DNA from: Paraniabella hibiscisoli
GTDB lineage: Bacteria > Bacteroidota > Bacteroidia > Chitinophagales > Chitinophagaceae
Length of the DNA stretch: 64,000 nt
Reading direction: 5' to 3'
NCBI RefSeq assembly: GCF_022512515.1
Contig: NZ_JAKWBK010000001.1
Location: 3,038,001-3,102,000 of the forward strand
A program made the position numbers and the translations under genes. The notes under the pieces were generated by a model. It made no database searches. It saw nothing but the letters and a program-made list of their open reading frames with translations, and was not told where the DNA came from. Each line of letters opens with the position of its first letter. Within the stretch, counting starts at the first letter, position 1. Positions 44,514 through 61,105 of the stretch are shown piece by piece.

Positions 44514-45683
44514 TTATCCTATAGTATTACCCATATTAAACATAGGCAGGTACATAGCTATCAAAACAATGCCTACGACAAAGCCCAGAATAACGATAAT
44601 AGCCGGTTCGATGAATTTGCTAAGTTGCGTGGTTTGGTAATCCAGCTCCTCAGAATATCGGTCCGAGAGCGTTTTGAAAAATAATTCCAGTTGGTTTACT
44701 TCTTCGCCCACCTTTACCAGAGCTACCATTTTAGGCGGAAAGATTTTTTGAGCTGCCATACTTTGATGCAAGGGCATGCCTTTCAGAATGTCGGCTTCCA
44801 TTTGAGAAAGCGCGCGTTCGAGCGGATAAAATCCCATAACCTGTTTGCTCAATGATAGCCCCTGTACTAAAGGTACTTTAGCACTCAATAACAACTGCAT
44901 GGTAGAAGCAAAGCGGGACAGGTATATTTTAGAGGCGATATTCTTTACCAGTGGCAATTTTTGAAGCAGCAGGTCTTTGTTTTTCTGGTACCAGGGCTTT
45001 TTGCGATTTGCTACCATAAAGACGATCAGCAGTGCTACTATTATTACAATTCTGCCAGCCCAGGCCTGTACAAATTTTGATATATCTAATACTACCTGTG
45101 TAAGATAGGGTAGGTCGCTGCCAAATCTTTTAAAAACATCGGCAAACATTGGTACTACATAGTTCATCATAAAAGAAACCGAAACGAAAGCAACACTTAA
45201 AACGATAAGTGGGTAGGTAAGCGCGCTAACGATTTGTCTTCTTTGTTTGATCTTACTTTTATAGTATACGGATAGCTGCTGCAGTACTGCAACCAACTTA
45301 CCCGTTTCTTCACCGATTTCTACTGTGAAATACTCGTAGGCGGTAAAGTTCTTGTTTTCTTTTAATGCTACAGACAGGGTTGTTCCGCTTACCACTTTAT
45401 CCAGAAGCTCAGTAAGGGTTGCTTTGGGTGTTTTTTTGGTTTGTTCATCTCTTATGAGCTGCAGGGCACTGCGAATGTCGAGGCCTGCCTCCATTAAGCT
45501 TCCTAACTCCAGGTAAAAAGATTCTTTGAGCTTATCGGAAAAAGGGCTGCCAAAAAGTGAAATATCTTTCGACAATAATTCTTCTATCCGTTTCATCAGG
45601 CTTTTTCGGTCTTCAGTACTGAGGCTGGTTTGCTCTTTATTACCCGGCTGTTGTAAAGCTTTTATATCAATCCTGTCACTCAC
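44514..45683 (-). CDS. type II secretion/type IV pilus inner-membrane platform protein (GspF/PilC-like)
   Basis: 389 residues. Two repeats of the T2SSF domain: LGSLMEAGLDIRSALQLIRD with FTVEIGEETGKLVAVLQQLS, and STMQLLLSAKVPLVQGLSLS with MVALVKVGEEVNQLELFFKT. Three membrane helices lie at about 155-175, 205-225 and near the C terminus. It forms the platform on which the GspE ATPase acts. It overlaps the preceding pseudopilin gene by 8 bp. The matching GspE is about 13 kb away on the other strand. Confidence 0.92.
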   Translation of the reverse strand: MSDRIDIKALQQPGNKEQTSLSTEDRKSLMKRIEELLSKDISLFGSPFSDKLKESFYLELGSLMEAGLDIRSALQLIRDEQTKKTPKATLTELLDKVVSGTTLSVALKENKNFTAYEYFTVEIGEETGKLVAVLQQLSVYYKSKIKQRRQIVSALTYPLIVLSVAFVSVSFMMNYVVPMFADVFKRFGSDLPYLTQVVLDISKFVQAWAGRIVIIVALLIVFMVANRKKPWYQKNKDLLLQKLPLVKNIASKIYLSRFASTMQLLLSAKVPLVQGLSLSKQVMGFYPLERALSQMEADILKGMPLHQSMAAQKIFPPKMVALVKVGEEVNQLELFFKTLSDRYSEELDYQTTQLSKFIEPAIIVILGFVVGIVLIAMYLPMFNMGNTIG

Positions 45684-46203
45684 TTGTTTGTAGATTTTTG
45701 TTAGCTACCGACAGCATCTCTGCTGCTGAATAATCTTTTTGAAGATAGGTAAAAAATGCTTTTTGATGATAGATGGTACGCATTTTTACAAATGTCACCA
45801 GGGACAGTGTATCCTGCATAAAACTAATACTTTCAATAGTGGCTCCCGGTTTTAAAGTGTCTATTCGATCGCCCTGCGCTCTCAGAACATAATTGCTGTC
45901 CAGGTAGATCTCTAAGGGTTGATCTGAGTTAGCTCCTCCACCGGGTGCACTAATAGTGAGTTTTTTGCGATCATCAGAAATGGTGATCAATCCGGGTCGA
46001 CTAAAATCTCTTTGCAGCACCGACTTGGTGAGAAAATAATCGGTGTAGAAGCTATTCTTTTCCTCCATGTTTCGCACTTGTTTGTTAACGATCATGTAAA
46101 CAGCAAAGCCTGTTGCAAAAACTATACTCATGATCAGGAGACTGATCACCATTTCGGGCAATGTAAATGCACTGAGTTTTTTATGGTAACAGGTTGGGTT
46201 CAT
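45676..46203 (-). CDS. pseudopilin (GspJ-like)
   Basis: About 175 residues from MNPTCYHKKLSAFTLPEMVI. The prepilin signature is a short basic leader, the cleavage-site region SAFTLPEM with Glu at +5, then a hydrophobic helix (VISLLIMSIVFATGFAVYMI). The rest is a polar globular domain. The minor type GspJ is suggested by length and position before GspF. An in-frame start three codons upstream is less likely than the ATG at 46203. Confidence 0.82.
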   Translation of the reverse strand: MNPTCYHKKLSAFTLPEMVISLLIMSIVFATGFAVYMIVNKQVRNMEEKNSFYTDYFLTKSVLQRDFSRPGLITISDDRKKLTISAPGGGANSDQPLEIYLDSNYVLRAQGDRIDTLKPGATIESISFMQDTLSLVTFVKMRTIYHQKAFFTYLQKDYSAAEMLSVANKNLQTSE

Positions 46204-46228
46204 GCGCTGCAAAAATGTGGCGGCAAAT

Positions 46229-46592: not shown

Positions 46593-46957
46593 AGTTCTGC
46601 GCAGCAAGGTAGTAAATTAATGCTTGCAGTTGCCCCTTTTACTAACAACAGGGTGCTTAAAAGTTTTTCGCCGCTACAGGCGTCCTTTGCGTCTTCTCTG
46701 CATACTTCGCGGTAAAAATATTACAATGCGAAAAATTTTTACGCGCCATAACAACAGGCAAGTGGTTTGCTAAATATAAAAATGTAGTACAGTTGGTTAG
46801 TAAATGAAAAATCTCCTGTATTTTTGCTCTGAAATATAACTGCTGATACTTATGAGACATCATCCTGTTAACCGAAATATCCAGGCTTCCCGTTAAAGAG
46901 GTTTCTCGTTGGTGAAAGTAGTTGTTATCTACTTCAACTAAAACCCAGTATAAACTT
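46593..46957. other. divergent spacer between pseudopilin and first fibre gene
   Basis: 365 bp. It contains a CTTTGCG/CTCTGC-type repeat at 46681-46713 resembling those at 19182-19642 and 24227-24294. It should hold promoters in both directions; none is clear. A short open frame on the minus strand has no family features. Confidence 0.5.
46681..46713. repeat. degenerate CTTTGCG/CTCTGC repeat
   Basis: Reads CGTCCTTTGCGTCTTCTCTG then CATACTTCGCGGT, a single arm of the repeat type seen at the GxxExxY cassette and at 24227-24294. No partner arm is obvious here. Confidence 0.45.
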
Positions 46958-48137
46958 ATGAGAAAAAGATGCCGTTTTTCAACCGCCTTGAAGATGTTTC
47001 TATTGCTGTTTATGACCTGCGTTCATTTTATGGCTAAAGCTCAAACCCTGGTGGGGCAAACCCTCGACGCAGCCCCCGGAGATGCTTTCATTTACCAATC
47101 ACAATCGGCGCCACATTATGGTATTAAATGGACGAGCGATACCTGGGCCCCAGGCGCAAGCACTGCCTGGTTCAGCAGCTATGCTGGAATTAAATTTTTA
47201 CAGCGGCACCAGGAAACTTTCAATAGATGCTAATGGGACAACTGAAATTCTTGCACCATTAATTATAAATCCAGCAACCCCAGCAAATAATCATATTTTA
47301 TTTCGAAATAATGGTACAAGCCTGGGAATATTAGGTTCGTCAGGGAGTTTGTATGGAAACCCGGATGATTTTGTATATATATATGCTTACGGCAGCAGCA
47401 ATCTTGAATTTTCTACAGGAGCCGCAAAACGCCTTGTGATAAAAAATACAGGTAATACGGGTATTGGTACCGATAATCCTTATGCAAAGCTGGATGTCGC
47501 TGGTGACATATTCATGTCATTACATAATCATTGGAATCAACATCATCCATCGGAGCAGGGAAGCTTTAAAGTTGGTATGAAAAGCGGCAATACCACTGAT
47601 GGGTTTTCGGGCATGCAGGTTACAACGAAGCCATACGGCGAAGGTAATGGCAGTATACTCCAGTTTTTTACCTGGGGGTTTAATACTGCGTTTTCACGGG
47701 AAGTAATGAGAATTACGGAAGAAGGCAATGTTGCTATTGGTATCACTTCATTTCCTCCGCAATATAAACTTGCCGTGGCAGGAAAAGCTATTGTTGATGA
47801 GTTAAAGGTTAAGCCTCATGCTGCTGGCTGGCCCGATTATGTATTCAAATCGACTTATAAGCTAACTCCGCTTTCTGAGGTCGAGAAATTTATAAAAACC
47901 CATCAACATTTACCAGAAGTGCCCAGTGCTAAAGAGGTCGCAGCTAATGGTATTGAGGTAGGAGCTAACCAGGCTTTACTGTTAAAGAAAATTGAGGAGC
48001 TCACACTGCATATTATAGAGGTGAATAAAAGTGTAGAAAGCTTAAATAATCAAATGAGTGAGTTAAAACAGGAGAATAAAAAACTTAAGACCAGGGTTGT
48101 TCAACAGGAGAATATTGTTAAACGTTATATTAAATAA
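46958..48137 (+). CDS. fibre-like exported protein 1 (NVGIGT/HLPEVPSA family, frameshifted)
   Basis: Reconstructed as about 392 residues after removing one T near 47193-47197. The signal peptide ends at ...FMAKAQ; the mature start is TLVGQTLDAAPGD. Two NTGIGT-type beta motifs (TGNTGIGTDNPYAKLDVAGD, YKLAVAGKAIVDELKV) precede the shared C-terminal module: WPDYVFKSTYKLTPLSEVEK, HLPEVPSAKEVAANGIEVGA, ALLLKKIEELTLHIIEVNKS. It ends in a coiled coil (NNQMSELKQENKKLKTRV). Probably a trimeric surface fibre. No catalytic motif, no T9SS tail signal. Confidence 0.8.
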
Positions 48138-48156: not shown

Positions 48157-49156
48157 ATGAAAAAGATCAATGCGTCATGTATAAAACGAGTGGGTTTTGT
48201 TGTCCTTTCTTTATTATGTACAGAATTTACCCTCCATTCTCAAACCCTGGTGGGGCAAACGCTGGATGCAGTGCCTGGAAATTCGACTACCTACGACGGG
48301 CAAACACGCCCGCACTACGGGATTAGATGGACTACTGACTCATGGTTTCAAGGCGCGCCAACGGCATGGATCAGTAGCTATGGAGGTATGAAGTTTTTTA
48401 CCGGTTTAAATGATTGGCTTTCTATTGATATAAATGGGAATATAAAAGCAAAAGGACAGTCGTTTGTTATTAATTCTCCAAAGGTTGGCATAGGAACAGA
48501 AACACCCCTTTCAGCTTTACATATTGAGAACAATGACCAGACTTATGTGATGATCAAGGCCACGGACTATACAATGAATCCATCGGTGTTGACAAAAAAA
48601 GGTGGTATTGTATTCAGCCAACAGTATGCAGATAAAACAGCAGGGATTAGCTTTGCTGTCCCCCGGGATATCATGTGCCTGGTATTATTTTTTCAACTAA
48701 AATAGCCTGGGATAATCCGGGAGTTGGAATGACTGAATGGCATGATAGAATGTCATACATCCGGATGGTAATGTGGGTATTGGTACTACAACCCCTGGCG
48801 AAAAACTTGCAGTGAACGGAAGAATTCTTGCCAAAGAAATTAAAGTAGTAAGTGGGGCTACTACAAGCTGGCCCGATTATGTGTTCAACCCGAACTACGA
48901 ACTAACACCACTTTCCGAGTTGGAGCAATTTATTAAAACGCATCAACACCTACCAGAAGTGCCCAGCGCTAAAGAAGTTGCTGCAAATGGTATTGAAGTG
49001 GGCGCTAACCAGGCTTTACTATTAAAAAAGATCGAGGAAATAACGCTGCATCTGATTGACCTTAATAAGAAGGTAGCCGAATTGCAACAGGAAAACCAGG
49101 CATTGAAAAAAGCCGAAAGAAACGTTTGTTATGGTAGCCAGCTGATTATTTTTTGA
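48157..49156 (+). CDS. fibre-like exported protein 2 (frameshifted)
   Basis: Signal MKKINASCIKRVGFVVLSLL...LHSQ, then TLVGQTLDAVPGN, so its N-terminal domain is related to protein 1. The frames around 48665 and 48755 join a middle region to NVGIGTTTPGEKLAVNGRIL and the shared module WPDYVFNPNYELTPLSELEQ, HLPEVPSAKEVAANGIEVGA, ALLLKKIEEITLHLIDLNKK with a short coiled coil. It starts 19 bp after gene 1. Its 3' end overlaps the convergent pseudopilin-like gene by 28 bp. Confidence 0.77.
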
Positions 49157-50388
49157 TCGCGGGCTCCTTCAAAAAATGAGAACGGGTGACCTTGTAACAG
49201 GTAGGGACTCCTGGTTATGGAAACATCTATTAAAATATTTTCCATACTCAGTGGGCCGCGCTGTTCAAAAAAGAAATCGGTGTAGATAGATCCTTCCACT
49301 TTGCCGTTCAGGTAGGCGTAGCCGCCACAATACACCAGTCCTTTAACAATAGCGCCTTGCTTTATCTTAACCACCGGGTGGATATTGGATTTTTTTCGCT
49401 TTTAAAACTCGCTACAATTCCTTCTACGGTGGCATTGTTATGTAAGGTAATGGTGCTGCCGGTATTACCCATTTCACCCTGCCGGCCCAGGCCAATCAAT
49501 GCTGAGGGGTAGATCAAACGACAACCGGCATCTACCGTAATGCTATCCAGGGCCAGCGCCTGGATGCTGCCTTCAAAGCCCTCTTTAAAATGGATAAAGG
49601 GGCGATAAGCAGGATGTTCTTAAGACGGCTGCTTTTATCTACTTCAATAACAGAATCGCTTACTACAATGATTTTTCCCGACAACGCCCGGTTGTTTAAA
49701 ATGCCCCAGGAGCCGGTTTGGTAGCGTTGAACGCTCTGGGTGAAGGATTGCTGCGCATCTTCTGTTAAAGGGATGCTGTTTGAAGGATTGCTAACAAGCT
49801 GTGCATATTGCTTGAAATGTTCAGCGTATGAAGCTATGATACTTGGTAATTCTTTTTGCTGGAGTCCGTGGCTCCTTCAATTAATCGTTTGCGCGAAAAT
49901 CCCTTTTGCTGAAAAAGCCGCTCCGGATGCCCGATTTAGGCAGGTAAGCTTTTCCCTCTATATAAGTGTCACCAACCAGTGATAGGGGTCTGTTCTGATC
50001 ACTCAGGTATAAAGTGGCATCTGCAAAAGGATAGGATGAGGCGCCGTATAAAAAGCAGAGCTCTTTTTGCCGGCCCTTATAAGAAGCTTTTATATGAGCA
50101 AGGGGATAGGCGCCCCATAGTTCTTTGGTGTAATATGCCGAGTCCGGTTGCTGGTTAAATAATAAAAAACTATCTAAACGAACCTGGTTGCTGATCTCAT
50201 TATCAGCCAACAGTAAGGTCTTGATCGATTGAATATCGTTTTCTAACCGCTCATTGATCTCGTCCTTTACCTGGAAATAGCGTAGGTAATAAACTCCCAG
50301 TAATAGCAGCGAGCAGGTGACGAATAAGATCAACGAAAGGAATAGGGTAGATAGCAGAGAGGACGCCGGTAATTTTTTTCCAAAACAT
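49129..50388 (-). CDS. pseudopilin-like membrane protein with bactofilin-like repeats (several frameshifts)
   Basis: Reconstructed as about 418 residues. Removing one A from the run at 50372-50379 gives the start MFWKKLPASSLLSTLFLSLI and a long helix (LFVTCSLLLLGVYYLRYF). This resembles a class III-type prepilin leader but lacks the usual Glu at +5. The C-terminal half is a turn-rich beta helix (GKIIVVSDSVIEVDKSS, TLHNNATVEGIVASFKSEKK, GAIVKGLVYCGGYAYLNGKV) like bactofilins or GspK-type tips. Frame changes are also near 49888, 49870, 49605 and 49390. I do not recognise a named family. Confidence 0.6.
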
Positions 50389-50396
50389 GCCGGTAA

Positions 50397-50914
50397 TTAT
50401 GGGTTAGGCAATGCCTGGCCTTTTTATAACGGGTTACCACAGAGCTATCGCCCTGTAAATTCACCTGGTAGCCGGTAAACAAGTCCTTGTTTTCAAAACC
50501 GCTTTTGATGGTATTGCCATTAGCGTCGTATTCTTTAATGGCATAACTGTTGTTCCAGAATCCGAAGCGCTTACGGCGAGTAGATTGGAGTACGCCGTCT
50601 GTATACCAGCTGCGCCAGAGTCCCGTTTTTTGTCCCTTCTTAAATTGCCCCTCCTCTAATAAATGCCGGTCACGGTCTACCACTTTGTAGTTACCGTGGA
50701 GTAGTTTGCCATAGTAACCTCCCTGGGTTTTATGTATGCGTCCTGATTTAAACCAATAGTAGAAAAGCCCCTGGTTAGTGCGGCGGTTATCATCAGTTAC
50801 CTGGAAAATGTACGATCGGTCCGAAGAGTCGATGCGCACCCTGCCGTTGTAATACTGACCTTTTGCAGCAGTAACAACTATTGATAAAAATACAATAAGT
50901 AGCAACCTTGTCAT
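50397..50914 (-). CDS. MORN-repeat exported protein (frameshifted at end)
   Basis: 172 residues. Signal MTRLLLIVFLSIVVTAAKGQ. The mature part has MORN-like (YwqK-type) strands: GLFYYWFKSGRIHKTQGGYY, LLEEGQFKKGQKTGLWRSWY, YDANGNTIKSGF. Adding one A near 50425-50430 gives a tail ...KKGQALPNP and a TAA at 50397-50399, 8 bp before the next ATG. Without it the frame reads into the pseudopilin-like gene. The two are surely co-transcribed. Confidence 0.72.
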
Positions 50915-51262: not shown

Positions 51263-51289
51263 ATGAATAACAAAATCAAAACGCTGTTA
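51251..51289 (+). repeat. 39-bp exact repeat (second copy 52256-52294)
   Basis: The 12 bases before the ATG and the first nine codons of fibre genes 3 and 4 are identical (51251-51289 and 52256-52294). Identity of untranslated and signal-peptide DNA indicates a recent tandem duplication or gene conversion. Confidence 0.85.
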
Positions 51290-52246
51290 GTCCTTCTTAT
51301 CGTGCCAGTCTTTTTAAGGGCCCAAACCCATACCGATCAAAATGGCTGGAAGACATCGGTGACTGATCCCCTTAGCGGTCAGCCAACATCGGCTAGGCGT
51401 TTCGAAGTAGCAACATTAGGTTACAATTCTCATCATTGGCAAATGGGTGGTTTGATTTTTGTTGAATTATTTAACCAATACTTTGCCACGGGTTATATGA
51501 AATATGTAGTGGAAAATGGGTATGGTCAGGGAGCCGGAGGTGGCGCTCCAGTTCTGCGTCTTTTAGAAACCTATGGTACGCAACGGGATGCCCGGGTTGT
51601 TCTTGGGGTCGCAGATAGCGTTACTGCTTTTAATGGCGTATTTCAAATAATGAAACTCCCGATATATGTAGATGTGGGCAACTATGGGAGTTATAAAGTG
51701 AAAATTACCTATCTCCAGGATAAAGTAGATGCCCTCACTGGTCAGAATCAATTAAAATTTAATGTAGCTCCGGCTGGAGATGTTGTTGGAGCTTTTACTG
51801 GTCCGGCAGCTCCTGATAATAACATCGCGGGATCAGGCAATTTAATGATATCTGGCTTAGGGGCGCATTATATCGAAAATGGCAATGTAGGTATTGGTAC
51901 TAAAAATCCTACAGAACGGCTTTCTGTGAAGGGTAAGATCCGTGCGCAGGAAATTAAAGTTGAGGCCGCGAATACTGGCAACTGGCCCGACTATGTATTT
52001 ACAAAAGAGTATCAACTCCCCAGTCTGGCTGATGTAGAAAAGCATATTAAAGAGAAAGGGCATTTACCCGAAGTGCCATCGGCTAAAGAGGTAGAGAAGG
52101 AAGGAATAGCTTTAGGTGCTAACCAGGCTTTATTGTTGAAAAAGATTGAGGAGCTGACCCTGTATATCCTGGAATTGAATAAAACAGTTTCGGGTCTTAA
52201 GGAGAAGGTATTGGAGCTTGAAAGCGTTCCAAAACAACAAAAGTAA
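51263..52246 (+). CDS. fibre-like exported protein 3
   Basis: 327 residues, intact. Signal MNNKIKTLLVLLIVPVFLRA. N-terminal domain THTDQNGWKTSVTDPLSGQP to about residue 205, with LPIYVDVGNYGSYKVKITYL, then NGNVGIGTKNPTERLSVKGK, RAQEIKVEA and the shared module WPDYVFTKEYQLPSLADVEK, HLPEVPSAKEVEKEGIALGA, ALLLKKIEELTLYILELNKT, with a short coiled coil. The N-terminal domain is shared with protein 4. It differs from that of protein 7, although the DNA of the C-terminal module is nearly the same as in gene 7. Confidence 0.82.
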   Translation: MNNKIKTLLVLLIVPVFLRAQTHTDQNGWKTSVTDPLSGQPTSARRFEVATLGYNSHHWQMGGLIFVELFNQYFATGYMKYVVENGYGQGAGGGAPVLRLLETYGTQRDARVVLGVADSVTAFNGVFQIMKLPIYVDVGNYGSYKVKITYLQDKVDALTGQNQLKFNVAPAGDVVGAFTGPAAPDNNIAGSGNLMISGLGAHYIENGNVGIGTKNPTERLSVKGKIRAQEIKVEAANTGNWPDYVFTKEYQLPSLADVEKHIKEKGHLPEVPSAKEVEKEGIALGANQALLLKKIEELTLYILELNKTVSGLKEKVLELESVPKQQK

Positions 52247-52267
52247 ATCGCACACAAATTAACTGTT

Positions 52268-53257
52268 ATGAATAACAAAATCAAAACGCTGTTACTGGCT
52301 TTTATCGTACCAGTCTTTTTAAAGGCCCAAACCCATACTGATCAAAATGGTTGGAAGACTTCTGTTTCTAACCCTATATCAGCCAGTGCTGAACAGGCCA
52401 TGCGATATGAGATCGCGACAATCGGCTATAATTCGGCGCATTGGCAGCCCGGAGGACTTATTTTCATTGAATTGTTTCACTATTCTTATGCAACGGGTTA
52501 CTCTAAATATGTGCTGGAAAACGGCTATGGCCAGGGAGCTTTAAATGGTACGCCTGTTTTACGGCTGGTTGAAAACTACGGGGCTGTAGCCAATGCAAGG
52601 GTATTGCTGGGAACACCGGTTGATCTCGCAACCAGCTACATAGGACAGGTAAACAGGAAGTTGCCTGTTTATGTAGATGTAAGAAGTTACAGTACTTACA
52701 AGGTAAAGATTACGTATTTACAAGAGCGGGTAGATATTGTGGATAACCAAAATCAGCTGGGTTTTAATATTGCGCCAACCGGTACGCCGATCTCCGATTT
52801 TACCGTCTCAGGGTTGCCGGACAATGACATAGCGGGCTCAGGAAATTTAAAAATAACCGGCCCTGGCCATCATTTTATCAAAAATGGTAATGTAGGAATA
52901 GGCACCAGAAATCCGACAGACAAACTTTCGGTTAAGGGCAAAATACGCGCGCAGGAAATTAAGGTAGAAGCTGACAATGGCGCTAACTGGCCTGACTATG
53001 TTTTCAAAAAAGATTATAAGCTACCCAGCCTGGCTGATGTAGAAAAGCATATTCTCGAAAAAGGACATTTGCCCGAAGTTCCTTCAGCTGAAGAAGTTGA
53101 AAAGGAAGGTATTGCTTTGGGGGCTAACCAGGCCTTGCTTCTCAAAAAAATAGAAGAGCTAACCTTATACCTTATTGAGAAAGATAAGCAATTGAAAACA
53201 CAGCAACTCGTTAATGAGGAGCTCGAAAAAGATTACAATACCTGGAAAAGATGCTAA
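52268..53257 (+). CDS. fibre-like exported protein 4, tandem paralogue of protein 3
   Basis: 329 residues, intact. Same domain order as protein 3 and clearly homologous along its whole length (THTDQNGWKTSVSNPISASA, LPVYVDVRSYSTYKVKITYL, NGNVGIGTRNPTDKLSVKGK, WPDYVFKKDYKLPSLADVEK). It ends ...NEELEKDYNTWKRC. The leader and first codons are identical in DNA to gene 3. The divergence in the middle of the N-terminal domain would fit variation of an exposed face. Confidence 0.82.
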   Translation: MNNKIKTLLLAFIVPVFLKAQTHTDQNGWKTSVSNPISASAEQAMRYEIATIGYNSAHWQPGGLIFIELFHYSYATGYSKYVLENGYGQGALNGTPVLRLVENYGAVANARVLLGTPVDLATSYIGQVNRKLPVYVDVRSYSTYKVKITYLQERVDIVDNQNQLGFNIAPTGTPISDFTVSGLPDNDIAGSGNLKITGPGHHFIKNGNVGIGTRNPTDKLSVKGKIRAQEIKVEADNGANWPDYVFKKDYKLPSLADVEKHILEKGHLPEVPSAEEVEKEGIALGANQALLLKKIEELTLYLIEKDKQLKTQQLVNEELEKDYNTWKRC

Positions 53258-53287
53258 AATTACCTTATAAATTATAACTGAACACGA

Positions 53288-54297
53288 ATGAAAAAAATAA
53301 CAGTCCTTGCATTTTTTGTATTAAATGTTTTTACGCTTTTGGGGCAGGAGTTCTCTTCTCCTACCCGTACAGAAATCAAGCATGATGCAAGTGAGCAAGC
53401 TTCGAAATCAGGTTTCTTTCAAACGGCACATCCTGCCAATTTTCCCACAGGGGCCAATGGATGGTGGCATTTATTGGATGTAAGGCATGATAACCCGCAA
53501 AATAACTATGCGATGCAATTTTCGGGTAGTTTTTTTGACCAGGAGCTATATTTCCGTAAAATAAACAATAATGCAACAGAACCCTGGCAAAAAGTATTAA
53601 TGGCTAACGCCAACGGAAACCTGGGTGTTGGTGTCGTAATGCCAACTTCTAAACTTACAGTTAACGGGGAGAGAACAACAGGGCGATCGAAATTGTTGGA
53701 GGGAACTATTATGGGAGCGGCGCCAGTTATAGTTTCCCCGCTTTAAGCTTCTATTCTACCATAAACGCTGTGAGATCTGCCGTCCCTACTTCAGAGATAC
53801 GATTTGTGGACCGGCCGGGAACTTTTGGTTATCCTGAAAATGTAAGGGCATCAGATATTGAGTTTTATACAGTTAAAAGTTGGGATGGAAATGTATATAC
53901 ACATGTTCCAAGCCTTACAATGACTATCAAATCTAACCAGGACGGAGGCTATGTTGGTATTGGAACGGCTGTTCCAAAAGAAAAGCTATCTGTAAATGGT
54001 AAAATCCGGGCACACGAAATAAAAGTGGAGCAAAACAACTGGCCAGACTATGTATTCAAACCAGCATATCAGCTAATGCCAATCAGTAAGCTGGAAGAAT
54101 ATATAAAGATACACAGCCATTTACCCGGTATACCCTCGGCGCATCAAGTGAAGGAAAATGGTATCGCGTTGGGAGAAAATCAGGCTGCTTTATTGAAAAA
54201 GATCGAAGAACAGGCTTTGTATATTATACAACAGGAGAAAAAGATGACTTCACTTGAGAAGCGCATAGAAAAATTGGAGAAGCTAATTAACAATTAA
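53288..54297 (+). CDS. fibre-like exported protein 5 (frameshifted)
   Basis: 336 residues after one base is added near 53670. Signal MKKITVLAFFVLNVFTLLGQ. A tryptophan-rich N-terminal region (GANGWWHLLDVRHDNPQNNY, NNATEPWQKVLMANANGN) resembles short segments of phage tail-fibre proteins. Then come LGVGVVMPTSKLTVNG, YVGIGTAVPKEKLSVNGKIR and the shared module WPDYVFKPAYQLMPISKLEE, HLPGIPSAHQVKENGIALGE, ALLKKIEEQALYIIQQEKKM, ending in a coiled coil. Confidence 0.78.
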
Positions 54298-54307
54298 ACA
54301 ATACCGT

Positions 54308-55252
54308 ATGAAGACCCTTTTATTTTTTACATTTTTATTGATTAAGTCCTTTTCAGGTTTTGCTCAAAGCAATGACAAATATGAAACATCGGTTACTTTT
54401 CCTGGCACTTACCAGGTAGGTGATTATGTGGAATTTGTACAGACATCGCCCATAGATGCAGGGGCTTCGGGGTATTATGAAGTGTCTATAAGCTACACCA
54501 GGAGTGGTATTGCGGCGGCGGCTACTTATATAGCTTCAGTTTCTCACGCTAACTATAATAAATGGAGAGAAGCGGGTATGGTTAACTCCAATGGTTATGT
54601 TGTTGCAGAGCAGAGAAGCTTTACCATAGACTGCAACGGGTCTTCCAGCCGGTTTCGCATAAGAGCTATTGCTACCTATGGTTATTATAACACGGAAGGT
54701 ATAACCGTAAATATTAAAGTCCGTTCCATTAATTTTAATACTGGCTGGACTGCATTAAATAATGCGGGTAATGATATTTCGGTAACCCAGCTACACCCGA
54801 TGACCAATGAATGGAGCTTATATACGGGCAATTTGGGCCTTGAAACATCGGCTCATATTGCGTTCCACGCAAAGAGCAATGGTAATGTTGGAATAGGCAC
54901 CAGGAATCCAATGGAAAAACTATCTGTGAATGGCAAGATCCGCGCAAAAGAAATTAAAGTAGAAACAGCTGAAAATACCTGGCCAGACTATGTATTTATA
55001 AAAGAATATAAGCTGCCTACTCTTGCTGATGTCGAGAAGCATATCAAAGAAAAAGGGCATCTACCTGAAGTGCCTTCAGCTTCGGAAGTGAGTGAGCATG
55101 AGCATGGGCTGGAGCTGGGAAATAACCAGGCTTTGTTATTGAAGAAGATTGAAGAGCTGACTTTGTATATGATTGACATGAAGAAAACGGTAGATGTGTT
55201 GATTAAAGAGAATAAAGAGCAGGCCAGGCAAATAGAGCAATTGAAAAAATAA
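54308..55252 (+). CDS. fibre-like exported protein 6
   Basis: 314 residues, intact. Signal MKTLLFFTFLLIKSFSGFAQ. The N-terminal domain is a beta-sandwich-like region (YYEVSISYTRSGIAAAATYI, SSRFRIRAIATYGYYNTEGI) not shared with neighbours. Then NGNVGIGTRNPMEKLSVNGK and the shared module WPDYVFIKEYKLPTLADVEK, HLPEVPSASEVSEHEHGLEL, ALLLKKIEELTLYMIDMKKT, plus a coiled coil to the end. Confidence 0.82.
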   Translation: MKTLLFFTFLLIKSFSGFAQSNDKYETSVTFPGTYQVGDYVEFVQTSPIDAGASGYYEVSISYTRSGIAAAATYIASVSHANYNKWREAGMVNSNGYVVAEQRSFTIDCNGSSSRFRIRAIATYGYYNTEGITVNIKVRSINFNTGWTALNNAGNDISVTQLHPMTNEWSLYTGNLGLETSAHIAFHAKSNGNVGIGTRNPMEKLSVNGKIRAKEIKVETAENTWPDYVFIKEYKLPTLADVEKHIKEKGHLPEVPSASEVSEHEHGLELGNNQALLLKKIEELTLYMIDMKKTVDVLIKENKEQARQIEQLKK

Positions 55253-55263
55253 AAATCCAAAAA

Positions 55264-56192
55264 ATGTTTATGAGAAAGCTAATTATGATAACAGCATGTT
55301 TGCTGGCTGTACTCTATGTAATGGGCCAGTCTTCCGGCTCAATTACAGTGGGTGGTGACCTCGATAAATTTTACCCTGTCACTTTTAATGATGGAGGATG
55401 GGATAATCATGTGCCTACCAAATTGATAATCGGGAGGTCGAATGTGCATGAAAATGAAACATGGAGAGGTAGTTTAATGGCAGAGTTTTCGTTTCACACT
55501 TATTCCGTAGGACACACGTCTAATTTTATAGACGTGATGATTAAGAATGATGTGTTTTCATGGACTGAAAACACCATGAAAAAATTCATAGCCGGATGGG
55601 TTGATCCCACAGACGGGCCCAGCCCAAGAGTTATTATTATTTGGCTAAGAGGAGGAGGCATTACTTATCATTATTCTTCGAATTTTACTGTAGGTCCGGT
55701 TATTTACGACGGCATTCAAAATGCCTTGCCGCTTACCGGCCATGGTTTAGGTACTTATAATTATAAAACCCAGGCAGACCGTTATGTGAATTCTCTGGGA
55801 TATACCTGGGGTACTATTCATAACTTCTTAGGTAATGTGGGAATAGATGTGGCAGCCCCCACGGAGAAGCTCGAAGTGAATGGAAAGATACGCGCTAAGG
55901 AAATAAAGGTAGAAGCTAACAATGGCACTAATTGGCCCGACTATGTATTTACAAAAGAATATCAACTCCCCAGTCTGGCTGATGTAGAAAAGCATATCAA
56001 GGAGAAGGGGCATTTGCCCGAAGTGCCTTCCGCCGCGGACGTGACTAAGAATGGACTGGAATTAGGAAATAACCAGGCTTTGTTATTGAAGAAAATTGAG
56101 GAATTAACATTGCACCTCATTCAAATGGAAAAAGAAACAACGAGCAGGATAAAGAAATAGAACGTTTGAAAATAAAACTACAATCTAAATAA
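55264..56192 (+). CDS. fibre-like exported protein 7 (frameshifted near end)
   Basis: 309 residues after adding one A near 56131-56133, giving the tail KIKLQSK. Signal within MFMRKLIMITACLLAVLYVM; an ATG six bases downstream is an alternative start. N-terminal domain (SGSITVGGDLDKFYPVTFND, FIDVMIKNDVFSWTENTMKK) of a third type. Then LGNVGIDVAAPTEKLEVNGK and the shared module WPDYVFTKEYQLPSLADVEK, HLPEVPSAADVTKNGLELGN, ALLLKKIEELTLHLIQMEKE. DNA at 55933-55997 matches 51983-52047 of gene 3 with one difference. Confidence 0.8.
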
Positions 56193-56194
56193 GT

Positions 56195-57133
56195 ATGAAG
56201 AAGCAAATTGTAGCAGCCTTTTTATTGCTTGGTGTTATTGTGTGCCAGGCGCAGACCAGCATTTACGAGAGCAATGGTAACGTGGGGATCGGAACAAGTA
56301 CCCCGTTGGCGAAACTAGATGTTTTGGGTGGGATAGATATGGCACCTTCTTACCCTATCCGATTGGTTAGAGGCGATGGAAATCATGGTCTTCGGTATAA
56401 GGCTCAGTATGACGCAACAACTACATTAGATGGTCCTTTTTTATTTGGTTTTTATGGCGGAAGTCTTGGCATAAAACAAGGAGAAATTGAACAACACTTT
56501 ATCAACTGGAATTCGGTTGGTAATGTGGGCATTGGTACCGTTAATCCCGAAAATGCCGAAGGCTGGCATAAAGTGCTTGAGGTTAAGTCTGCAAACAATG
56601 CTAAGTCACTTGTTTCGAGTGAAAATGTCATCTCTGGTTTATGGTCACATGAATGGGGTTTCTACGGTGCTCCTGCCGGAGGTATTTCGGGTACTTATAC
56701 CAATCATCCTTTTAGCTTTATGACCAACAAAATAAGCCGTATGACGATCACTAATGATGGTCGTGTAGGGATCGGAACCAGCGCTCCGCCATCGAATTAC
56801 AAATTGGCTGTAGCCGGTAATATAATTGCGGAGCAGGTAAGGGTTCAACTTCAATCGTCCGGCTGGCCCGATTATGTTTTTAAACCAGGTTATAAGCTGA
56901 TGCCGATTAAGGATATAGAAACTTTTATTGAGCAAAAAGGCCACCTCCCCGAAGTGCCATCGGCAGAACAGGTAGGTAGGGAAGGCGTGGAGCTGGGTAG
57001 TAACCAGGCTTTGCTACTCAAAAAGATTGAGGAAATGACCCTGCATCTCATTAGTATTCATAAACGGGTAGAAAGTCTGGAAGAGGAAAATCTGTTGTTA
57101 AAAAAACGCCTCGAAAAGTCTGCAGTACAATAA
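56195..57133 (+). CDS. fibre-like exported protein 8
   Basis: 312 residues, intact; starts 2 bp after gene 7. Signal MKKQIVAAFLLLGVIVCQAQ. It consists almost entirely of NVGIGT units: ESNGNVGIGTSTPLAKLDVL, SVGNVGIGTVNPENAEGWHK, DGRVGIGTSAPPSNYKLAVA. Then the shared module WPDYVFKPGYKLMPIKDIET, HLPEVPSAEQVGREGVELGS, ALLLKKIEEMTLHLISIHKR and a coiled coil (ESLEEENLLLKKRLEK). It directly precedes the GspG-like gene on the same strand. Confidence 0.82.
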   Translation: MKKQIVAAFLLLGVIVCQAQTSIYESNGNVGIGTSTPLAKLDVLGGIDMAPSYPIRLVRGDGNHGLRYKAQYDATTTLDGPFLFGFYGGSLGIKQGEIEQHFINWNSVGNVGIGTVNPENAEGWHKVLEVKSANNAKSLVSSENVISGLWSHEWGFYGAPAGGISGTYTNHPFSFMTNKISRMTITNDGRVGIGTSAPPSNYKLAVAGNIIAEQVRVQLQSSGWPDYVFKPGYKLMPIKDIETFIEQKGHLPEVPSAEQVGREGVELGSNQALLLKKIEEMTLHLISIHKRVESLEEENLLLKKRLEKSAVQ

Positions 57134-57166
57134 ACAACCGTATTTTTGTTAAGTAACCTACAAGTA

Positions 57167-57595
57167 TTGCGCACAAGATCAATTATAAAAACAAAATTCA
57201 AAACCAGGCTGGCCGGGTTTACACTAACCGAGGTATTGGTGGTGCTGATCATTATCGGTATACTGGTTTTGCTGGCCTTACCCAGTTTAATGCCGCTCAT
57301 TTCCAAAGCCAAAAGCACGGAGGCTAAGCTGCAACTGCAGCACGTATATACATTGGAACGTTCGTACTTTTTTGAGAACTCCACCTATACCAACGAGTTG
57401 CCGTCTATTTCTTTCGAGCAGCAGTTATTGACTACCCAGGGCGGACAGGCAAATTATAAGATCGAGATCATTGAGGCTTCTCCCAAAGGATTCAGGGCCA
57501 GGGCTACCGCAGTAACTGATTTCGACGGAGACGGTGTTTTCAATCAATGGGAAATAGACCAGAACAAAAAACTAACCGAAACGGTACCGGACTAA
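57167..57595 (+). CDS. major pseudopilin (GspG-like)
   Basis: About 142 residues. The class III prepilin signature is textbook: a basic leader (KTKFKTRLAG), cleavage before FTLTEVLVVLIIIGILVLLA with Glu at +5, and an amphipathic helix running into ISKAKSTEAKLQLQHVYTLE. DFDGDGVFNQWEID near the C terminus resembles the Ca-binding loop of GspG. No ATG precedes the leader in frame; TTG at 57167 (or 57146) is the probable start. Followed by the peptidase and GspE genes. Confidence 0.85.
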   Translation: MRTRSIIKTKFKTRLAGFTLTEVLVVLIIIGILVLLALPSLMPLISKAKSTEAKLQLQHVYTLERSYFFENSTYTNELPSISFEQQLLTTQGGQANYKIEIIEASPKGFRARATAVTDFDGDGVFNQWEIDQNKKLTETVPD

Positions 57596-57637: not shown

Positions 57638-58174
57638 GTGAGCTTGACGAACCATAACTGTAATATTTTTGCGTTAATACAGCCCTTTCTTACTTTGATA
57701 ACTGTAATAATCTCTATAATCTTATTGGCCATTGCTTATACCGATTTTAAAGAACGGTCTGTTCCGGTATATCTATTAGTTGCATTATTGGGTATTTGCA
57801 TAATGGATACTGCTTTGCAAATAGATGTAACCACTGCTTTGTGGCAACTGGCTGTTAACACGGGCTTGATCCTACTGTTGTTAAGTACTTTGTTGGTCTA
57901 CTACCGGTTCAAACAAGGCAGTTTTAAAGAAGTGATCAATCAAAAGCTGGGTATGGGAGATGTGGTATTCTGGATCGCCATTACACCTTTATTTTCTCTG
58001 TTTAATTTCATACTGTTTTTTATTGCATCTCTGCTGATTGTGCTAATAATTATGTTGATCCGGGTAGCTTATAAGAAGCCTGTAACGCTGATTCCCCTCG
58101 CTGGCTACCAGGCACTGGTGTTGGTGGCAATCATTCTTTCGAACCTGCTTTTTTCAATCATCCTTTTTCCATAG
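57638..58174 (+). CDS. minimal type IV prepilin peptidase (A24 family)
   Basis: 178 residues, all membrane segments. The two catalytic aspartates of A24 peptidases are visible in AIAYTDFKERSVPVYLL and INQKLGMGDVVFW. The N-terminal methylase domain with CxxC pairs found in PilD is missing, so this is the short form that cleaves but probably does not N-methylate. Start appears to be GTG at 57638. It lies between pseudopilin and GspE, its expected substrate and partner. Confidence 0.85.
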   Translation: MSLTNHNCNIFALIQPFLTLITVIISIILLAIAYTDFKERSVPVYLLVALLGICIMDTALQIDVTTALWQLAVNTGLILLLLSTLLVYYRFKQGSFKEVINQKLGMGDVVFWIAITPLFSLFNFILFFIASLLIVLIIMLIRVAYKKPVTLIPLAGYQALVLVAIILSNLLFSIILFP

Positions 58175-58224: not shown

Positions 58225-59648
58225 ATGAATATAGAAGCTACTCATCATAAACTGATCACCGCTGAACTGGCCTGGCGTTATCGTATAGCTTACCTGAAGC
58301 AGCAAAACGGAATCATTTACCTGCATGCAGCTTCGAATACCGACCCCGCTCAGTTAAAACAATACCAGGAAGAGCTGTCTTTGATAACAGGCCATCCCAT
58401 AGCATTCGACCTGGTAGAAGAGGACTTGTTATTGCAAATAATGGAGCAGCAATATGCCAGGCGGGATAGTGCAGATGAGCGCTTACAGCACAACTATTAT
58501 GAAGGCAATCCCGATCATTTTTTAGATGACCTGATTGCCGAAGCCAAGTTTTTAAAGAGCAGTGATATTCATATCGAAACTTATGAAACGGATTGCCGGG
58601 TGCGGATAAGGGTAGATGGTTTACTGGTGCTGCGCTACCTCATCGAGAAGAAGCTGTATCCTTCGCTGATCAATAAAATAAAGATCGCCGCCAACCTCGA
58701 CATTGCCGAGAAAAGATTACCACAGGATGGGCGCATTTTCTTCAATAAGGGAGCTGATAAATTTGATATTCGTGTTTCCATTGTTCCCGCCTTGTATGGA
58801 GAAAAAGTGGTGCTCAGGTTATTAAGTAATGATGCAACGGATATTAAACTGGAGAACCTCGGCTTTTCAGAAAACGACCTGTATAATTACCTGGAAGGCT
58901 TGAAAAAGCCTTATGGTATTATACTCATCAGTGGTCCTACCGGCTCTGGTAAAACCACCACCTTGTATGCCACTTTAAAGCGGCTGAACCTCTCTACCAA
59001 AAATATTCTCACCATTGAAGATCCCATTGAGTATACCTTACAGGGTATTAACCAGGTACAGGTACGCGATAATATCGGGTTGACTTTTGCCAAGGCCTTA
59101 AGAACCTTTTTAAGGCAGGATCCGGATATTATTATGTTGGGTGAGATACGCGATGCGGAAACCGCTAATATGGCCATACGCGCGGCTTTAACGGGCCATT
59201 TGGTATTATCCACCATACATACCAATTCGGCCTGGGGCACTATTTCCCGCTTAACGGATATGGGCATTCCGTCCTTCCTTATCGCCAGTACATTGAACAC
59301 TTCGGTAGCACAGCGCCTGGTGCGGTTACTATGTCCGGATTGTAAGAAACAGGTGCCTTTTGATAGCTCCCTGTTTCCGCGTAAATACACACCACCAGAA
59401 GTAGTGGAAATGCATTATATACCGGTTGGTTGTTCTCACTGTTACAACACCGGTTATCGCAAACGCAAAGCCATTTATGAAGTACTGCCGATAGACGAAG
59501 ACCTGGCGGATGAAGTAAAAAAGGAAGCTCTAAAGTAGATGAGCTGCTAAAGGAAAAGGACATTCAAACCCTTGCCGGCAATGCGTTCCGGCTATTTAAA
59601 ACCGGGCAGACTTCGATAGAAGAAGTGTATTCGATGTTGTTGGGGTAA
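58225..59648 (+). CDS. type II secretion/type IV pilus assembly ATPase (GspE/PilB-like, frameshifted at end)
   Basis: 474 residues after adding one A near 59518-59523. Cytoplasmic hexameric ATPase powering pseudopilus assembly. N-terminal GspE-N domain, then FLKSSDIHIETYETDCRVRI, Walker A ISGPTGSGKTTTLYATLKR, the Asp box LTIEDPIEYTLQGINQVQV, Walker B DPDIIMLGEIRDAETANMAI, the His box TGHLVLSTIHTN, and a four-Cys zinc motif (CPDCKK, CSHCYNTGYRKRK). The tail in the other frame (SIEEVYSMLLG) completes the family C terminus. Confidence 0.93.
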
Positions 59649-59919
59649 ATTTTGTCAAAAAATATTTTGTGAATAATATACAAACCTTAATTTTGTTAAG
59701 CGAAGAATAACCTGAATGAAATGAACTATGATAAAGACTAATTGCGTTGAACGGCTAACTATCAAAAGTGATTTTCAAATAATATTTAAGGATAGGAATA
59801 GTGAGATAAAATGCTGAACGGACCTCTGAGTTTACTATTTTGTCATTGAGAAAATAAAATTGACTGATTTTACACGCTAAAGATATTTCCGCTATGTGCG
59901 GAGTGTCAAAATTTTAAAC

Positions 59920-60468
59920 ATGCTTATGAAATGGCTGACTAAGAAGATGGTTATTGGCGTACTCGCCGTGGTTATTTTGATAATGGTTGGGTGGCTGTGT
60001 TTTCGCAGCTCTAAAATCGCCTATATCGATTCAGCAAAGTTAATGACGGGGTATAACGCCATGGTAAATGCCCGTAAGGAATACGATAGTAAGGGTAAAA
60101 CCTGGCAGGCTAATATTGACTCTTTGACGAAAGATGTGCAGGGAGCTATCACCACTTATGAAAAAACAATGGCCTTAGGCACTGATAAAGAAAAACAATT
60201 GGCGAAAGACCTTATTAATACCAAACAGAGACAGTTACAGGATTACCAGGCGGCCATTCGTAAAAATGCGGGCGAAGAAGAACAACGTTTAACCCAGAAT
60301 GTATTAACCACGGTGAATAGCTTTTTACAGCGATATGGCAAAAAGCATGGTTATAAAATGATACTGGTGGCAGCTAACGGAAATATTGCTTACGCAGATG
60401 CCGACCTGGATATTACAGATAAAGTAGTAGAGGAGTTAAACAAGGAGTATGCGGTACCTGCAAAATAG
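59920..60468 (+). CDS. membrane-anchored Skp/OmpH-like protein
   Basis: About 182 residues from MLMKWLTKKMVIGVLAVVIL, a single N-terminal membrane helix with no cleavage site. Then the OmpH/Skp pattern: SKIAYIDSAKLMTGYNAMVN, a long coiled coil (about residues 50-130) and KKHGYKMILVAANGNIAYAD, with LDITDKVVEELNKEY at the end. Skp-like proteins hold unfolded outer-membrane or exported clients in the periplasm. The position before a large exported protein suggests a dedicated chaperone, which is inference. Confidence 0.8.
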   Translation: MLMKWLTKKMVIGVLAVVILIMVGWLCFRSSKIAYIDSAKLMTGYNAMVNARKEYDSKGKTWQANIDSLTKDVQGAITTYEKTMALGTDKEKQLAKDLINTKQRQLQDYQAAIRKNAGEEEQRLTQNVLTTVNSFLQRYGKKHGYKMILVAANGNIAYADADLDITDKVVEELNKEYAVPAK

Positions 60469-61059
60469 TATCGGAATATTGATTGTTGCTGCATTTCTTT
60501 TGTTATACAGTTGCGGTATTACTAAAAAAGGAAGTCTCAGTAAAGAGGAATTGCTGGAATATGTCAATGATCCTGATAATGGCTTAACGAAAGAGCAGGA
60601 GGCGAATGGTGTAAAAGTAAAACTATCTTTTTACCCTTCTTCTTTGCTGGTAGCCCAGGAGCAAGCGGATACTATACCCATCGAAAAGTTAAAGGCCAGG
60701 TATGGAGGGCATTATTATTTTAAGGCCAGGTTTAGTAAGGATGGCAAGGAAGCCATAAGGCAATTGGGTGACTTTGGTAAGTATAGCGAAATGGTGCAGG
60801 TGCTGGCTTTTCGTATGAACGATTATGTAAATCTTACTACCAGTAGTAAAGATACTTTGTCGATGGCAGATTATTTTTTCGATCAAACCTACGGAATGAG
60901 CGATGGTAATAACCTCATGTTAGTATTCAGCAAGGATCAAATAAAAAATGCAAATATGTTCGATATCAATATAGCGGAGTGTGGTTTTGGAACAGGGGCA
61001 TTAAAATTTTCTTTAAAAAGGAAGACTTGGAACAGCTGCCTGAGTTGAGGGATAATTAA
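60449..61059 (+). CDS. lipoprotein of unknown function (frameshifted near end)
   Basis: 203 residues after adding one base near 61011-61018, giving the tail KEDLEQLPELRDN. Signal MRYLQNSIGILIVAAFLLLY with a lipobox ending in SC. The mature part (GVKVKLSFYPSSLLVAQEQA, MADYFFDQTYGMSDGNNLML) has no recognised domain. The start overlaps the Skp-like gene by 20 bp, so they are translationally linked; the RHS-type gene begins 46 bp downstream. Confidence 0.75.
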
Positions 61060-61105
61060 TAACCGATTAAAGACCGATAAGGCTAACATAACTAACCGTT
61101 TTACT

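Follow-up and report, generated by a model that had tools for sequence, protein, structure and literature searches.

What leads genes with unrelated N-terminal regions to share a nearly identical stretch of DNA close to their C-terminal ends? This question is posed by g3 and g7, two genes in a 64,000-nucleotide stretch of the Paraniabella hibiscisoli genome (NCBI RefSeq assembly GCF_022512515.1, contig NZ_JAKWBK010000001.1, positions 3,038,001 to 3,102,000), hereafter the window. The eight related genes of the window (g1 to g8), together with seven just outside it, are best explained as coding for modular secreted fibre-type proteins, each with a variable N-terminal tip, a neck similar to those of tail fibres and of the mosaic adhesive trimer (MAT) fibres of Bdellovibrio, and a common C-terminal module comprising a WPDYVF domain (the W-domain) and a long helix (the coil). 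We propose that they probably constitute a modular gene array subject to gene conversion. The label "fibre" is one that we infer, as is the role of an anchor that a first-pass annotation of this DNA had given to the module.

A short tract of silent-site identity between g3 and g7

Bases 51983..52047 in g3 (plus strand; WPDYVFTKEYQLPSLADVEKHI) and 55933..55997 in g7 (plus strand) are identical at 64 of 65 positions, just as the first-pass annotation had reported, and the lone mismatch is a silent GAG/GAA difference. Both tracts are recovered by base matching, codon rows and permutation. In the codon rows the identity begins at the W codon of WPDYVF and continues for about 20 codons, with a looser tail until PEVP. 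Within the top segment, PDYVFTKEYQLPSLADVEKH, 19 of 20 silent codons are identical versus 20 of 56 outside it, which was equalled in none of 2000 within-pair permutations and in none of 300 codon redraws in which the maximum over 105 pairs was taken. Upstream of the tract (alignment columns 20-50) 4 of 18 comparable silent codons are identical and downstream of it (columns 72-118) 15 of 32, the silent identity of the two modules beyond the tract being that of the background. Uniform synonymous divergence along the genes, which the first-pass annotation had named as evidence against exchange, is hence not observed. As the same columns in the remaining 104 own-genome pairs are identical at only 540 of 1107 silent codons (49%), silent sites there are not constrained as such. 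Comparison of the N-terminal regions of g3 and g7 (204 and 187 amino acids) found no similarity (best E 1.6), and the claim that they are unrelated stands.

Among the 15 modules of the source genome silent sites are near saturation, with 2547 of 6030 same-amino-acid codons identical over the 105 pairs (42%), where codon usage predicts 39%. A second pair that stands out, g14/g15, lies outside the window: 20 of 21 silent codons are identical inside its segment and 12 of 37 outside, which again neither the 2000 within-pair permutations nor the 300 family-wise redraws equalled even once. A further pair, g6/g7, with 9 of 9, is on the borderline (family-wise p 0.013). Statistically, the best reading of the g3/g7 match is one short-tract gene conversion event, for it displays the hallmark of ectopic gene conversion: two paralogues that have otherwise diverged agree at their silent sites along one delimited stretch. 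What was exchanged is thus a tract of about 20 codons inside the module, and not the whole C-terminal module as first suggested.

Certain positions retain a particular codon despite the near-saturated silent sites: in the coil of the own modules (AACCAGGCT) the conserved Q is CAG in 13 of 13 and the next A is GCT in 13 of 15. The near-invariant TAT, GAA and CAG codons of the own modules are variable in the relatives.

Probable conversion tracts in other genomes

The earlier suggestion of recombination or gene conversion receives strong support from permutation tests in both the source genome and its relatives. A search for the module returned 359 hits, of which 355 were kept once overlapping copies were removed (the loci L058 and L113, copies of L042 and L045, were omitted), and within-genome pairs were tested in 39 genome groups with at least three modules. 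In a family-wise test, where a pair was counted if it lay above the 99% null with a score greater than 10, 101 of 1594 within-genome pairs exceeded the null; 65 of these, in 22 of the 39 groups, are mosaic, their silent identity outside the segment being no higher than 0.6 across 15 codons or more. As this null presumes saturation, a condition that is not satisfied throughout (overall, 49% are identical), the test was repeated as a within-pair permutation. Leaving aside 11 of the 1594 pairs, with fewer than 20 comparable silent codons, 33 of 1583 passed a false discovery rate (FDR) of 5%, in 17 of the 39 genome groups, many of them Pedobacter; 1.6 pairs would be expected at p 0.001. The 33 significant tracts span 24-189 nucleotides (median 72), and 18 of the 31 significant pairs from the same locus are neighbours in module order. 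We also considered WPDYVF itself as a breakpoint hotspot: in seven genome groups a tract does end there, but tract ends are spread across the module.

The g3/g7 tract has its mirror image in a Pararcticibacter pair (locus L067, 5872 and 6857): there all 38 silent codons from the neck through ADYVFN are identical, and after that the two sequences diverge.

Tips and modules are nearly unlinked

Across genomes, the W-domains of proteins with related tips have an identity of 0.577 (503 pairs) and those with unrelated tips in the same genomes 0.567, as against 0.677 for unrelated tips within one genome; the identity between W-domains with the same tip exceeds that within the same genome in 91 of the 503 pairs. 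With modules permuted among the genes within each genome, tip linkage was clear in the first 15 neck columns alone (z 4.4). Four subsets gave a similar picture, and the second half of the neck gave p 0.010 when each gene was used once. The gene set comprises 49 clusters of related tips, singletons excluded, and blastn relates the tips of just 38 of 1605 within-genome pairs (tips limited to their own reading frame). Tips that share 48-58% identity with that of g6 occur in other Niabella, in Pedobacter and elsewhere.

Chimaeric pairs illustrate the same uncoupling. The P. nototheniae pair (L105) is 98% identical over 303 nucleotides of the tip and 96% in the neck, dropping to 64% in the W-domain and 68% in the coil, and diverges directly after WPDYVF. 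In the P. steynii pair (L114), the tip is 86% identical over 647 nucleotides and the neck 84%, with 54% in both the W-domain and the coil, and the protein match likewise stops after WPDYVF. The first-pass annotation had envisaged new tips being spliced on to the shared module; this does not describe the g3/g7 tract, in which no tip moved, and it finds support in the relatives, from such chimaeras and from the near-independence of tip and module.

Architecture of the proteins and the array

A whole-genome search with g3 recovered 17 matches, all at 3085.7-3126.3 kb of the contig (about 41 kb), and a 97-kb stretch around the array holds 15 W(P/A)DYVF modules, 8 in the window and 7 beyond. All eight window genes lie on the plus strand: g1 (46922..48137, module W at 47829), g2 (48157..49156, W at 48869) and g5 (53288..54297, W at 54040), each split by an apparent frameshift; g3 (51263..52246), with its tip at about residues 22-200, a neck running from NVGIGT to IKVE, the W-domain and the coil; g4 (52268..53257), a whole-gene paralogue of g3 with 70% protein identity; g6 (54308..55252, W at 54980); g7 (55264..56160), with a beta-rich tip, neck, W-domain and coil; and g8 (56195..57133, W at 56864), with extra NVGIGT necks in its N-terminal part. 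By eye, the N-terminal hydrophobic segment of g3 (within 51263..52246) resembles a signal peptide.

The necks follow the pattern NVGIGTxxPxxKLxVxGKIxAxEIKV. In the predicted structure of g7 the tip is a beta-sandwich, while the C-terminal module is helical and has a long helix as its last element. The structure predicted for g3 is similar; Foldseek matched neither to the PDB at E <= 0.001. With VIA-align the g7 tip aligned to the tailspike-like WceF (Z 6.7, root-mean-square deviation 3.3 over 105 residues) and to galectins (Z about 3.4-4.0), and, the Z-scores being middling, this gives just a hint that the predicted tip might be a lectin-like sandwich. It also matches phrog_10758, a family of unknown function. 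Nine window proteins scanned gave zero matches to Pfam or NCBIfam families above cut-off, and the motifs WPDYVF, WPDYVFE, HLPEVPSA, HLPGIPSA and NVGIGT were not found in the literature text searched.

Single-base frameshifts seem to split fibre-type genes and an RHS-type gene at window positions of about 47200, 48700, 53750 and 61730, with further apparent sites in locus L018 (14424-14470, 15401-15440 and 17196); the frame breaks of g10 and g11 fall at the same TATAAAAAA run. Given an assembly completeness of 83%, these are likely to be indel errors of the assembly; the alternative is that they mark real pseudogenes. Two fibre-type genes with WADYVF modules, g12 and g13 (L018 15797-17652, minus strand), are inverted relative to their neighbours.

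A neighbouring T2SS/type IV pilus-like machine

The fibre array sits among genes of a Bacteroidota type II secretion system (T2SS)/type IV pilus-like machine, namely those for GspF, pilins, a prepilin peptidase, GspE and a secretin. On the minus strand are a GspF/PilC-type inner-membrane platform (44514..45683; PF00482, E 1.8e-44) and a pilin-like protein (45676..46212; PF07963, just under cut-off), and on the plus strand a pilin or pseudopilin (57146..57595; PF07963, above cut-off), a prepilin peptidase (57638..58174; PF01478) and a GspE/PilB-type ATPase (58225..59538; PF00437, E 4.3e-121); the secretin (PF00263) lies beyond the window (L019:777-2761). The gene set typical of T2SS and type IV filaments is hence present, with PF00437, PF00482, PF00263, PF07963 and PF01478 all above their cut-offs.

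This linkage recurs in other genomes. Machine and module genes are interleaved in the Niabella genomes G006 and G012, the latter with 11 of its 12 module matches at 634-660 kb and GspF at 629 kb, and they are adjacent on shorter contigs in G001 and G016. Of 76 named module loci, 29 have at least one machine component within the flanking sequence that was retrieved (several loci come from one genome, and contig ends cut many flanks short; the viral locus L126, which has no module, is excluded). Among 17 genomes of the genus, including the source genome, 7 have both GspF and the module, 1 GspF only, 2 the module only and 7 neither (Fisher p 0.012), one of the two module-only cases being a weak coil-only hit in a genome that is 72% complete. 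In a sample of 197 genomes from the same class, the source genome included, 97 carry the module (E <= 1e-10), with at most 24 candidates scored per genome, such that module counts may be low for some. Here the module occurs in 27 of 34 GspF-positive versus 70 of 163 GspF-negative genomes (p 8.5e-5), and GspF in 10 of 17 genomes with at least five modules versus 24 of 180 others (p 5.5e-5), both values being uncorrected for shared ancestry. The association of GspF with the module is thus real but not exclusive. From linkage and co-occurrence, we hypothesize that the T2SS-like machine might export the fibre proteins.

The same island (window 59896-63179) codes for an OmpH-like protein, for another small protein of secreted type and for a secreted RHS-type protein whose DUF6531 match is under cut-off, and all three are also found near fibre genes in G006 and G016. 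Between g2 and g3 lie two reading frames (49881-50914, minus strand) conserved near GspF in G012 and G006; by eye, the first is a possible divergent minor pilin, for which no Pfam match was found, and the second has MORN-like repeats.

Proposed mechanism and alternative explanations

On the statistical evidence, short module stretches pass from one paralogue to another within a genome by ectopic gene conversion, presumably a RecA-type homologous exchange, and over time this renders modules alike within a genome and uncouples them from tips. In the relatives, the sequences of the chimaeras show that recombination at times joins a tip and its neck to a different module. The module might be the shared part through which the protein is trimerised, anchored or sorted, the tips might bind surface ligands, and the interleaved T2SS/type IV pilus-like machine might export or display the fibre proteins. 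A broader and more speculative proposal, which we regard as possible but less likely than not, is that Bacteroidota possess a widespread family of MAT-like adhesins of reverse topology, for whose export or display a dedicated T2SS/type IV pilus-like machine uses the shared WPDYVF/coil module, with homologous exchange in the array keeping the module genome-compatible and re-assorting tips without need of a recombinase of its own.

Several observations weigh against this picture. The g3/g7 tract lies wholly within the module, and no tip moved with it. The breakpoints that the first-pass annotation proposed to look for at the module border do not form a hotspot, the tract ends being dispersed along the module. 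Among the tests, the codon redraws ignore position-specific codon preference, on which the within-pair permutations depend less, and neither pairs drawn from related genomes nor loci that share a genome are independent. The W-domain and coil exceed the permutation null by about 0.01 (p 0.045 and 0.06), and over the full set and four subsets the W excess ranges from 0.003 to 0.017 (p 0.007 to 0.33); a weak residual link between tip and module therefore remains. The monomer models of g7 and g3 are moderate (predicted local distance difference test, pLDDT, 74 and 70) and low over WPDYVF itself, and three of the eight window fibre genes look frame-broken. Finally, the module is present in 70 of 163 GspF-negative genomes and missing from 7 of 34 GspF-positive ones, and 7 of the 17 genomes with five or more modules are without GspF; with the module this common in GspF-negative genomes, the machine cannot be the sole export route.

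The alternative that survives best, though we deem it unlikely, is that selection on a shared protein interface, with one receptor or machine per genome, keeps modules alike without any exchange of DNA. That modules resemble each other more within than between genomes at the protein level would also be expected from such co-evolution with one partner, but this explanation fails to predict bounded silent tracts, be it the 19 of 20 versus 20 of 56 silent codons in g3/g7 or the 33 of 1583 pairs at an FDR of 5%; interface selection may nevertheless act alongside conversion. Rather less plausible is a recent whole-gene duplication followed by tip replacement or very fast divergence, with the tract as its remnant: tandem duplication does happen in the array, as g3 and g4 testify, but diverged sequence flanks the g3/g7 tract on both sides within the same module, and the own tips are old, given that relatives in Pedobacter reach up to 57% identity. 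Very improbable is a site-specific recombination like that of the PilV shufflon swapping segments. In keeping with it are the inversion of g12 and g13 and the location of variable, adhesin-like genes next to a type IV pilus-like machine, but of the four tyrosine-recombinase matches in the genome the nearest, itself below the family cut-off, is about 385 kb away (the search did not extend to serine recombinases), the two stretches searched for inverted repeats hold only short imperfect ones, and tract ends are scattered. Least credible of all is an artefact of sequencing or assembly, through collapse or misassembly, which an error-prone assembly (83% completeness, several apparent single-base frameshifts) might suggest. 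Indel errors, however, do not produce a 64 of 65 match between diverged flanks, nor does a collapse account for it, and other genomes show the same pattern in their assemblies.

Mosaic adhesins are already known structurally; here their exchange can be followed in the DNA itself, through the silent sites of many genomes. Moreover, the fibre proteins emerge as candidate cargo for the Bacteroidota T2SS-like machine.

Comparison with known systems

In the available text of PMC10769870, the MAT fibres of Bdellovibrio bacteriovorus have one conserved and one variable end, and their tips are swapped. The present array is similarly a secreted multi-gene repertoire with one conserved end, one variable end and a matching neck (PMC10769870, as excerpted). 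Against the MAT structures cited (PDB 8OND, 8OL4 and 8OML), the neck profile matches 8OND at E 7.7e-6 (A3), 5e-4 (A2) and 1.1e-3 (A1) and 8OL4 at 2.5e-4, and the neck sequence appears to have the beta-helix/prism with a capping-loop motif that characterizes MAT. Unlike the MAT fibres, which that excerpt depicts with a constant N-terminal domain and C-terminal tips, the proteins described here combine a constant C-terminal module with a variable N-terminal part. The conserved N-terminal beta domain of about 130 amino acids that follows the MAT signal peptide was not found, the N-terminal region being variable here (the Bdellovibrio domain itself was not a query), nor was the diverse C-terminal adhesive domain, the C-terminus being the shared module. 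With two defining features absent, we do not classify the array as a member of MAT, even though it resembles a MAT repertoire. Silent-site evidence of exchange, as presented here, does not appear for Bdellovibrio MAT in the same excerpt (PMC10769870).

Like the 'T2SS' of Cytophaga hutchinsonii (PMC5553014; discussed as divergent in PMC6668835), the machine described here has its genes for GspD, GspE, GspF, pseudopilin and prepilin peptidase together in a single locus. A link to a fibre array is not found for the Cytophaga system in the available parts of the two papers (PMC5553014, PMC6668835).

A likeness to phage tail fibres is apparent in the neck and the tip (PHROG hits; 14 matches in BFVD with E <= 0.001, though their TM-scores are low). 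Unlike S74 tail fibres, none of the 9 window proteins has a detectable Peptidase S74 domain (Pfam, E <= 1). A phage origin was considered and set aside: of the 486 candidate stretches from a scan of IMG/VR for the module, a single one proved to be a relative, at 25% identity, and g7, the sole fibre gene so searched, had one weak, tip-only hit in 50,697 phage records. The module and g7 searches thus found no sign of such an origin, the surroundings not having been searched systematically for phage genes.

The PilV shufflon, too, generates adhesin diversity beside a type IV pilus-like machine, by means of an adjacent site-specific recombinase; here, unlike in that system, no tyrosine recombinase was found nearby, the constant end is C-terminal and the exchange looks driven by homology. 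Gene conversion between adhesin paralogues is also known from the bab genes of Helicobacter and the pil genes of Neisseria. The array resembles these in its ectopic conversion between paralogues, and differs from them in that it is the constant part that is homogenised, whereas the variable part stays distinct.

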